Source: a bacterium (GTDB lineage Bacteria; Myxococcota_A; UBA9160; UBA4427). From it: DNA of 33,611 bases. Of the stretch, positions 1-27,833 are shown piece after piece (the stretch's first letter is position 1; each line of letters begins with the position of its first letter). The position numbers were made by a program, and so were the translations under genes. A model generated the notes under the pieces. It saw only the letters and a program-made list of their open reading frames with translations, was not told the DNA's origin and searched no databases. The stretch spans positions 1 through 33,611 of the forward strand of contig JAUIMK010000009.1 in NCBI GenBank assembly GCA_030432735.1. Reading direction: 5' to 3'.

Positions 1-852
1 GAGCTTCCAGAGCGTGTCGATCTTGTCCATCTGGCCGAGGCCGAAGGCCGCGCCGCACTCGTTCGGGATGAAGCCGTAGGCGTTCTCCTCGAAGATGAAG
101 AGCCCGTCGTACTCGACGCCGTCGAGGTCCTCGAGGAAGCGCCCGTCGCTGTTCTCGACCTGCGTGCCGAACATGTACTTCTCGGACGAGCGGCCCCAAG
201 CACGCAGATGCAGGGCGCGGTCGAGGTACTTGTCGTCGTCGAAGAAGACCATCCCGCCGTTGCCGAGGGCGGTGATGATGTGGTGGATCGAGAAGCTCGT
301 GATCGAGATGTCGGCGCGGGTCGCGGTCTTGCGTCCGCGGAGCGTTCCGCCGAGGGTGTCCGCGGAGTCGTGGATGACGAAGAGGTCGTGCTCGTCGGCG
401 TATCTCCGGACGAGGTCCCAGTCGCAGATGCCGCCCACGAGATCGGGGATCAGGATCGCGCGCGTGTCCTCGGTGATCACGTCCGGGATCTGGTCGACGC
501 GGATCTGGTAGTCCGAGAGGCCGACGTCGAGGAAGACCGGCGTGCAGCCCACGTGGTAGATCGCGGCGACGTCGGAGGAGAAGGTGAGGGCGGGGGTGAT
601 CACCTCGCTGCCGAGCGGCAGGTTGGCCAGGCGCATCGCGATCATCAGCGCCGACGAGCCGGAGTTCACCATCACGCCGTGCCGCATGCCCATGTACTCG
701 GCGACGCGCGCCTCGAACTCCATGACCTTCTCGCCGGGCATGAGGCCCATCGGGTCGGCCAGCTGGGCGTTGACGCGGTCGATCTCGTTCTGGTCGAAGA
801 GCGCGCCACCATAACGGACGATGCGGGGCTCGATGCGGGACGATGCGGACAT
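1..852 (-). CDS. DegT/DnrJ/EryC1-family PLP sugar enzyme, DdhC/ColD (3-dehydratase)-like, 3' end cut by window
   Basis: The first 284 codons are present; the C-terminus lies beyond the window edge. The start is ATG at 852-850, with GAGGAG five bases upstream. The fold is recognisable from the substrate/PLP segment NSGSSALMIAMRLANLP, the HDSADTLGG stretch (compare DNCDALG of CDP-hexulose 3-dehydratases) and SFSIHHIITALGNGGMV. In ordinary sugar aminotransferases of this family the last segment carries the PLP-forming Lys (type HPVKHITTGEGG). Here two His occupy that site, as in the B6-dependent 3-dehydratases ColD and DdhC/E1. The following RAWGR...YD...Y.F..NECGAAFGLGQMD region also aligns best with DdhC. 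However, the Cys residues that bind the [2Fe-2S] cluster in DdhC are absent, so ColD-like chemistry or a divergent function is possible. It is the third of three co-directional minus-strand genes, 76 bp after the AhpD-like gene. Deoxysugar or surface polysaccharide synthesis is an inference. Confidence 0.85.
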   Translation of the reverse strand, partial: MSASSRIEPRIVRYGGALFDQNEIDRVNAQLADPMGLMPGEKVMEFEARVAEYMGMRHGVMVNSGSSALMIAMRLANLPLGSEVITPALTFSSDVAAIYHVGCTPVFLDVGLSDYQIRVDQIPDVITEDTRAILIPDLVGGICDWDLVRRYADEHDLFVIHDSADTLGGTLRGRKTATRADISITSFSIHHIITALGNGGMVFFDDDKYLDRALHLRAWGRSSEKYMFGTQVENSDGRFLEDLDGVEYDGLFIFEENAYGFIPNECGAAFGLGQMDKIDTLWKL

Positions 853-928
853 GGGGGCTCCTCGAATGAAAGGGAACGCGCGTCGCTGCGCGGGCCCGAT
901 CACTCTAGGTCACCGGAGCCGCTGCCGG

Positions 929-1513
929 CTATCCGTCCCCGAGCGCCGGATGGGCCTCGGGGAGCGCGCAGAACGCGCCGCTCGAGAAGCCCTGGTCGGC
1001 GACGTCGAAGCCGCGGTTGAACCGCGCCCGGAAGTTTTCGAGGGCGATCACGCCGGTCAGCTCGACCAGCTGCTCTTCGGAGAGGTGCTGGAGCAGCGTC
1101 TCCACCTGCGCGTCGCTGGCCGTCGCCGGCGTGCGCGTGAGCGCGACGGTGTAGTCGAGGACGAGAATCTCGAGCGCGTCGAAGGCATCGCTCTCCGCGT
1201 GACGCGGGATGGCCCGGAGCTGTGCCTCGGTGAGGCCGTGTTCCCTGCCGACGGCAGAGTTGATGTCCAGTCAGAAGACGCACCCGATCATCGAGGCGGC
1301 TTTGAGGCAGGCGAGGGTCTTCAGTCGCGCCGGCACCGTCTGGCCCCGGTCGAGGCTGATCTGGAGGAGCCCCGCGCCCCACATCGTGGCGCGGCTCTTC
1401 GCCATGATCCGGAGCGGATCCGGCACGGCGCCGACCTGCTTCGCGGCCGCCGAGAAGACCCGCTTCGTCAGGAACCCCGCTTCTTCGTCTCGTACGCCTT
1501 CGATCCTCGCCAT
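929..1513 (-). CDS. AhpD/carboxymuconolactone decarboxylase-like selenoprotein (in-frame TGA = Sec, CxxU)
   Basis: The 194-residue frame starts at ATG 1513 with GGGAGG upstream. It is read through a single TGA at 1273-1271 (codon 81) and ends at TAG 931-929. Before the TGA the product reads LKTLACLKAASMIGCVF; after it, LDINSAVGREHGLTEAQL. Cysteine homologues of this family have GCxFCxDxNSA at this place, so the TGA sits precisely on the second Cys of the redox CxxC motif. The protein after the TGA is fully family-like, for instance FNRGFDVADQGFS near the C-terminus, which argues against decay. A hairpin that fits a bacterial SECIS starts 12 nt after the TGA. AhpD-like proteins are a known bacterial selenoprotein family; they are small helical thiol/selenol oxidoreductases acting on peroxides or as disulfide reductants. 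The main alternative is a base error (TGC read as TGA). An annotation pipeline would truncate this gene at 80 codons or miss half of it. The neighbours are sugar-nucleotide genes on the same strand. Confidence 0.86.
1243..1259 (-). promoter_or_regulatory. Candidate bacterial SECIS hairpin
   Basis: On the minus strand CTCTGCC pairs with GGCAGGG around a GTC loop, giving seven pairs of which one is G-U. The loop G lies 19 nt after the UGA. This fits what is known of bacterial SECIS elements: a short stem, a small apical loop with G in its first two positions, and about 16-37 nt between UGA and that G. The stem uses codons TCT (Ser) and AGG (Arg), which look uncommon in this GC-rich window. This suggests the bases are kept for structure rather than for protein. 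Confidence 0.75.
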
Positions 1514-7745: not shown

Positions 7746-9482
<1,737 letters not shown>

Positions 9483-26171: not shown

Positions 26172-27833
26172 ATGTCCCACGACCTCGTGATCCGGAACGG
26201 ACAGCTGATCGACGGAACCGGCGCGCCGAGCGTGCGCGGCGATCTCGCGATCGACGGCGACACGATCACCGCCGTGGGCGAGGTCGCGGGCGAGGGCCGG
26301 CGCGAGATCGACGCGGCCGGCCTGGCGGTGACCCCGGGCTTCGTGGACATCCATACCCATCTCGACGCGCAGATCGGTTGGGATCCCTACCTGACGCCGA
26401 TCAGCTGGCACGGCGTGACGACCGCGCTCCTCGGCAACTGCGGCGTGACCTTCGCGCCGGTCCGGCCGAACGATGCCGACACGCTCGCCAACATGATGGA
26501 GACGGTCGAGGACATCCCGGCGAGCGCGATCCTCGGCGGTCTGCCCTGGAACTGGGAAGGCTATGGCGGCTATCTCGACGCGCTGGAGTCCGTCGATCCC
26601 GCCATCAACGTCGCGGGCCTCGTCGGCCACTGCGCCGTGCGCTTCTACGTGATGGGGGAGCGGGCCGTCGACGAGCATCCGACCGAAGCGGAGCTCGCCC
26701 GGATGGGCGAGGTCGTCGCGGAGTCGATCGAGGGCGGCGCCGTCGGCTTCTCGACCTCGCGCATCATCGGCCACCGCCTGCCCGACGGTCGCGACGTCCC
26801 GGGAACCCACGCCGCCCACGAGGAGCTGGTGGCGATCGCTCGGGCCGTGAAGGGCGCCGGCGGCGGCTTGATGCAGAACGTCCTGAATCTCGCCGGCGAC
26901 TTCGAGGGCGAACTCGAGCTGATCCGCAAGCAGGCGGAGACGACCGGCGACCGCGTCCTCTTCTCGATCACCGCGGGCCACTCCGATGCCTCCGGCCGAC
27001 TCTTCACCGACCGGATCGCGAAGCTGCGGGAGGACGGACTCGACGTGAACGGCATCGCGATTCCGCGGGGCTCCGGGTTCGTGTCGGGACTCGCGGCGAC
27101 GATGCCCTGGGGCCATGGCGCGTGGAAGACGCTCGCTGCCCGGGACTTCGAGGGGCGCCTCGAGGCGATCCGCGATCCCGCGACCGCCCTGCGGCTCGTG
27201 GCCGATGCCCGGGAGGACCGCGGCTTCTTCGCGAAGGTCCCGACCTACTGGCTCGGCGACGGCGACGCGCCCGACTATCTCTTCGACGAGGAGAGCGACC
27301 TCGCGTCGATGGCGAAGCGGGCGGGCGAGGAGCCGGCGGAGACCTGGCTCCGCCTGTCGAGTGAGAGCGACGGTCGGGCGCTCTTCTGCATGCGCCTGTT
27401 CAACCCGAACATGCGCGCCGTGGCCGACCTGATCTCCCTGGGCGACGTGCTGCCGGGGCTCAGCGACGCCGGCGCGCACGTGGGGCAGGTGATGGATGCC
27501 GGCTGGTGCTCGTTCGTCCTGTCCCACTGGGTGCGCGAGGAAGGGCTCTTCACCGCGGAGGAGGCGGTGCGCCGGATGACGTCGGCACCAGCGCGGATCC
27601 TCGGCGCGCACGACCGCGGCGTGCTGATCGCCGGCAAGAAGGCCGACGTGAACGTGATCGACCTCGGTCGCGTGAGCGAGCGGATGCCGGAGTTCGTGAA
27701 CGACTTGCCGGGCGGGGCCGGTCGCTTCGTCCAGCGGGCGCGCGGCTTCCGAGCGACGATCTGCAACGGCGTGCCGATCCTCGAGAACGACGAACATCTC
27801 GGCGCGCGGGGCGGCCGCGTGCTGCGTTCCTGA
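26172..27833 (+). CDS. Amidohydrolase, D-aminoacylase family (second paralogue)
   Basis: A 553-residue protein from ATG 26172, seven bases after AGGAG. It parallels the protein encoded at 7746 throughout: VTPGFVDIHTHLDAQ (metal His 61 and 63), GNCGVTFAP (Cys90 as candidate zinc ligand), VEDIPASA, YVMGERAVDE, and LSDAGAHVGQVMDAG in place of LGDGGAHCGAICDAS. The C-terminal barrel-sandwich closure is VLIAGKKADVNVIDL. Divergence between the two copies is considerable, so they are likely distinct in substrate. The family hydrolyses N-acyl-D-amino acids or related amides; here the neighbours are an MFS carboxylate transporter upstream and a P450 downstream. Confidence 0.9.
   Translation: MSHDLVIRNGQLIDGTGAPSVRGDLAIDGDTITAVGEVAGEGRREIDAAGLAVTPGFVDIHTHLDAQIGWDPYLTPISWHGVTTALLGNCGVTFAPVRPNDADTLANMMETVEDIPASAILGGLPWNWEGYGGYLDALESVDPAINVAGLVGHCAVRFYVMGERAVDEHPTEAELARMGEVVAESIEGGAVGFSTSRIIGHRLPDGRDVPGTHAAHEELVAIARAVKGAGGGLMQNVLNLAGDFEGELELIRKQAETTGDRVLFSITAGHSDASGRLFTDRIAKLREDGLDVNGIAIPRGSGFVSGLAATMPWGHGAWKTLAARDFEGRLEAIRDPATALRLVADAREDRGFFAKVPTYWLGDGDAPDYLFDEESDLASMAKRAGEEPAETWLRLSSESDGRALFCMRLFNPNMRAVADLISLGDVLPGLSDAGAHVGQVMDAGWCSFVLSHWVREEGLFTAEEAVRRMTSAPARILGAHDRGVLIAGKKADVNVIDLGRVSERMPEFVNDLPGGAGRFVQRARGFRATICNGVPILENDEHLGARGGRVLRS

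Follow-up and report, generated by a model that had tools for sequence, protein, structure and literature searches.

A predicted CxxU selenoprotein of the CMD/AhpD-like superfamily in Myxococcota

Introduction

AhpD-like selenoproteins with a CxxU motif were described in 2005 from Sargasso Sea data, and later catalogues include them (PMC1088965, PMC2398784, PMC9312934). A CMD-like selenoprotein belonging to PF02627, with CxxU in the CMD domain, has also been catalogued (PMC13188914). An earlier note on the DNA considered here, made from the letters alone, stated that such proteins occur in environmental bacteria, which is correct according to these reports. As the type was already reported in 2005, the novelty of the present locus lies at the level of the clade. 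The published model of the bacterial SECIS element has a loop of 3–9 nt, an upper stem of 4–16 bp, a G in the first two loop positions, a spacing of 16–37 nt from the UGA and a minimum free energy of at most -7.5 kcal/mol (PMC13188914). In AhpD, the proton relay consists of a Glu at position C-12 and a His at position C+4 (PMC3141380). A literature search retrieved no paper usefully tying Myxococcota to selenoproteins.

The gene and its in-frame TGA

The window, i.e. the whole stretch of DNA that was analysed, is 33,611 nucleotides long. The gene under study was defined from its translation with TGA read as U, its Pfam match and an alignment with 26 homologues:

929 to 1513, minus strand: predicted CMD/AhpD-like selenoprotein gene, ATG at 1513, TAG at 931–929, 194 codons
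1271 to 1273, minus strand: in-frame UGA at codon 81, predicted selenocysteine (Sec), the U of CxxU
1280 to 1282, minus strand: codon of Cys78, the first residue of CxxU, presumed to be the resolving one

Reading TGA as a residue in the translation of 1513–929 gave the motif GCVF-U-LDINSAVGRE around codon 81, and no second TGA was present in the frame. The read-through protein matched Pfam CMD (PF02627) over residues 58–116 with 33.7 bits, above the gathering cut-off of 23. Since this match spans the TGA, both halves belong to one protein and represent neither two genes nor a chance frame. The earlier note had described a TGA in an otherwise intact 194-codon AhpD/CMD-like gene, placed at the second Cys of CxxC, with the first Cys kept and a family-like downstream half; this description was borne out, on the minus strand.

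Protein searching of 192 related genomes in all six frames revealed homologues in 26 of them. TGA was present in exactly the same column in 24 homologous genes, originating from 23 Myxococcota genomes of several families, while the three most distant homologues displayed TGC. In the alignment of 27 sequences, G77, C78, the C/U81 column, D83, L140 and N160 were invariant, so that the proposed check of the read-through translation against its homologues gave Cys or Sec at codon 81 in every aligned sequence. A redox Cys column thus alternates between Sec, with an in-frame UGA, and Cys. A class-wide profile search drew the same line by score: all matches above about 190 bits carried the TGA, and all those below about 182 bits were without a stop. 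A single-protein scan of the genome contigs gave no relatives, and an alignment-based contig scan used Cys codons and therefore returned Cys forms only. Two diverged Sec-containing copies (L023 and L041) were observed in genome G025.

Fold, active site and proposed chemistry

A model calculated with AlphaFold2 from the alignment, with Cys replacing Sec, reached a pLDDT of 92.6. Among solved structures, the debrominase Bmp8 was the top Foldseek match, and AhpD-like and peroxidase-related structures were also retrieved. The following mechanism is proposed. SelB and tRNA-Sec would decode the UGA of codon 81 as selenocysteine, directed by the hairpin located just after it. The product would be an all-helical protein of the CMD fold, with an active site formed by C78-x-x-U81, a pair located where a helix begins. 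U81 would most likely act as the attacking selenolate and reduce a peroxide, a disulfide or a similar electrophile; C78 would resolve U81 as a selenenyl-sulfide, which a cellular thiol would then reduce. We regard attack by U81, resolution by C78 and reduction by a thiol, in this wording, as somewhat more probable than not; both the selenol–disulfide redox chemistry and the identity of the attacking residue are deduced from fold and motif alone.

The relay positions of AhpD are occupied by T66 (Glu site) and N85 (His site) in the window protein. Across the 24 Sec genes, the residue at U+4, where AhpD has His, was G in 12, N in six, H in five and S in one, and Glu was found at C-12 in none of the aligned Sec rows. 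As the Glu and His of the relay are not kept, strict AhpD chemistry is not supported, and with Asn at the His position and Glu absent, peroxidase activity is not assured. Sec has a low pKa. A redox pair without relay would fit selenol chemistry, as this low pKa should make a general base less necessary.

Two other views of the function were considered. In the first, the protein belongs, as a Sec form, to the classical AhpD peroxidase/adaptor family and has its Glu-Cys-Cys-His proton relay. It agrees with the CMD fold, the CxxC-equivalent pair and the TM-scores of 0.75–0.80 obtained by Foldseek with AhpD proteins, but the relay His is present in only five of 24 Sec genes, the relay Glu never occurs in the Sec rows, and the scores for TIGR01926 and TIGR00778 were below their cut-offs, which makes this assignment unlikely. 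In the second, the protein is a Bmp8-like reductive dehalogenase with selenol chemistry comparable to that of iodothyronine deiodinase. Bmp8 was the best single-sequence match as well as the top structural one, and its CxxC aligns with C78/U81. However, the identity is about 20–25%, the profile search favoured the Atu0492/PA0269-like AhpD proteins over Bmp8, and halogen-metabolism neighbours were not seen around the window gene, so that dehalogenation is considered decidedly unlikely.

A putative SECIS element

1243 to 1259, minus strand: predicted bacterial SECIS hairpin, 7-bp stem CUCUGCC/GGCAGGG, loop GUC, 18 nt from UGA to loop

The hairpin lies directly 3' of the TGA, folds with -10.2 kcal/mol and agrees with the published bacterial model in all its features. 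The motif matched once in the window (chance 0.01), and one further site with this hairpin was found when the rest of the genome was searched. An Rfam scan of the window returned no match. Taken alone, the window hairpin folds only modestly better than shuffled sequences (z of -1.9); the case for a SECIS element rests on comparison.

This comparison included covariation and synonymous codon constraint besides the fold. In the 24 Sec genes, 94% of the pair cells were standard pairs, a value that dropped to 40–53% when the pairing partner was slid, and the covariation score of the stem was reached by none of 500 shuffles. In one homologue (L028) a T-A pair of the stem was swapped for G-C. The distant homologue L037 had other amino acids in this region (SYGAYE) and still a perfect stem (CUCGUAC/GUACGAG). 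With L037 excluded from the codon counts, Ser was encoded by TCT in 22 of 23 cases in the stem vs 4 of 240 in the remainder of these genes (Fisher p 5e-27), and Arg by AGA or AGG in 21 of 22 vs 23 of 322 (Fisher p 2e-20), both p-values being nominal as the rows are related. The Sec genes are GC-rich and otherwise avoid TCT and AGA/AGG, yet these codons are fixed by the stem. Neither the hairpin nor the peptide motif SA[V/G]GR was found in the Cys homologues inspected, so that the RNA element seems to constrain part of the protein sequence. The family offers an unusually clean natural case of a SECIS element overriding codon choice and perhaps, with SA[V/G]GR seen in Sec forms only, protein sequence.

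Selenocysteine machinery

The assembly is a metagenome-assembled genome (MAG) of 5.05 Mb in 544 contigs, 91% complete and 5.3% contaminated. In order to be read as Sec, the codon would need an organism that decodes it, as the earlier note had anticipated, and this is supported by the covarying hairpin together with the genes found in the same genome: a tRNA-Sec with UCA anticodon (67.8 bits), two copies of selA (545 and 519 bits), two of selB over the cut-off (349 and 306 bits) and one of selD over the cut-off (264 bits). The selA/selB duplicates are located at L007/L009 (contig C428), L008 (C487) and L010 (C211). Either the genes are truly duplicated, or a related organism contaminates the MAG; given the 5.3% contamination and the two copies each of selA and selB, the machinery could partly derive from another organism.

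The gene selA was, however, detected in all nine genomes of the genus. It was also detected in all 23 genomes with the TGA form vs 139 of the 192 overall (hypergeometric p = 3e-4), and two of the three Cys-form genomes (G121 and G145) were absent from the selA-positive set within the 192 relatives.

As homologues have Cys in the column, translation of UGA as Cys would be chemically apt, and a variant code giving Cys, Trp or another residue was considered. It is very improbable in view of the dedicated tRNA-Sec (UCA) and of SelA, SelB and SelD encoded in the genome, and a general reassignment of UGA needs no conserved hairpin beside one codon; it was rejected on these grounds. On the evidence of sequence comparison, UGA at codon 81 almost certainly codes for selenocysteine, and the gene product is very probably a real selenoprotein of the CMD/AhpD-like superfamily.

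Gene neighbourhood

1 to 903, minus strand: DegT/DnrJ/EryC1/StrS aminotransferase, downstream neighbour, cut by the contig end
1654 to 2739, minus strand: NAD-dependent epimerase/3-beta-HSD-like SDR, upstream neighbour

The aminotransferase (PF01041, 192.8 bits) starts 25 nt past the stop of the selenoprotein gene; the SDR matched PF01370 with 89.7 bits. Both have the same order at locus L101 of the same genus. The selenoprotein gene is patchy within the genus (two of nine genomes). In another genome of the genus (G003), a 338-kb contig carries an orthologue with 84% identity and TGA at the same codon. The gene order there is that of the window, namely DegT aminotransferase, selenoprotein, epimerase-like SDR and beta-lactamase-family protein, plus a small additional ORF separating selenoprotein and SDR. 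This shared order speaks against a chimeric window and against an error at the TGA. A nonsense mutation, or a mistake in sequencing or assembly, with a pseudogene or a true TGC or TGG codon behind it, might be suspected for a single interrupted ORF in a MAG of 544 contigs, but it was rejected, its likelihood being practically nil, as TGA recurs at the same codon in the G003 orthologue and in the same column of 24 separate, otherwise intact and full-length genes, and as the hairpin constraint is confined to the TGA genes.

The sugar-nucleotide setting suggested by the earlier note was confirmed in part. It consists of one DegT/DnrJ/EryC1 aminotransferase and one epimerase-like SDR; further out in the window, catabolic genes follow (Rieske oxygenases, amidohydrolases, glyoxalase, nitroreductase). 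The neighbourhood is not conserved outside the genus, where it gave no functional lead, so that the context says little about function. Two similar amidohydrolase-like proteins are encoded at 7746–9482 and 26172–27833 among genes for Rieske oxygenases and SDRs, suggesting that this part of the window is a catabolic region. The contig ends (33508–33611) with two copies of gcgcgcgaagcgcgttcgaggtcagctgcccccttcggc, forming a direct repeat roughly 40 bases long, which may be the reason why the assembly stops there.

Evolution of the Sec and Cys forms

A maximum-likelihood tree of 42 proteins was calculated, with a midpoint root only. With a branch support of 100/97, L037 was placed among the Cys forms and not with the remaining 23 Sec proteins, a topology that requires two or more changes between Sec and Cys. 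The L037 gene (L037:1501–2043, minus strand) is a distant homologue from the same order with Sec in the same column and a wholly different, fully paired SECIS stem. Its rewritten but paired stem and its separate place in the tree point to an apparent second Sec/Cys switch. On this branch, two separately built SECIS elements can be compared directly within one fold. One may go further and imagine that there is a subfamily of CMD proteins in which the Glu/His relay of AhpD gave way to the low pKa of Sec, that its substrate is not a peroxide (e.g. reductive dehalogenation as in Bmp8), that Sec was gained or lost two or more times and that SECIS elements were built independently from different codons in the same place; as a whole, this scenario is speculative and improbable.

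Comparison with known systems

The NCBIfam model matching best was NF053654 ('YciW-related (seleno)protein'), aligned over 1–175 of 179 positions with 103.3 bits. It was matched by all 27 aligned homologues, but its cut-off of 310 was reached neither by the window protein nor by the best individually scored homologue (146). The selenoprotein families NF041047 (GSU3128 family) and NF041238 (AhpD_rel_CFYUT) also have CxxU in a CMD domain; their profiles are 84 and 357 positions long, and the window protein scored just 14–15 bits. No individually scored homologue reaches an NCBIfam selenoprotein cut-off, so that in routine annotation the gene would probably be split, as foreseen by the earlier note. 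In many relatives this was the outcome of simple ORF calling.

The solved structures of PA0269, Atu0492 and Bmp8 share the fold and the position of the CxxC pair, but have Cys where the window protein has Sec. PA0269 keeps Glu36 and His55 (PMC3141380), while the family of the window protein does not. With the AhpD-like selenoprotein of the Sargasso Sea and GOS data (COG2128/YciW, TIGR01926), the window protein has in common the CMD fold, CxxU, a bacterial SECIS element and an origin in environmental bacteria; its score with TIGR01926 was 28.6 bits for a cut-off of 81.8. The selenoproteins described here are a new clade within the known CxxU AhpD-like/CMD-like type, as judged from family models. 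They document in Myxococcota an uncatalogued clade of CxxU selenoproteins, whose genes are broken at the UGA by default gene callers.
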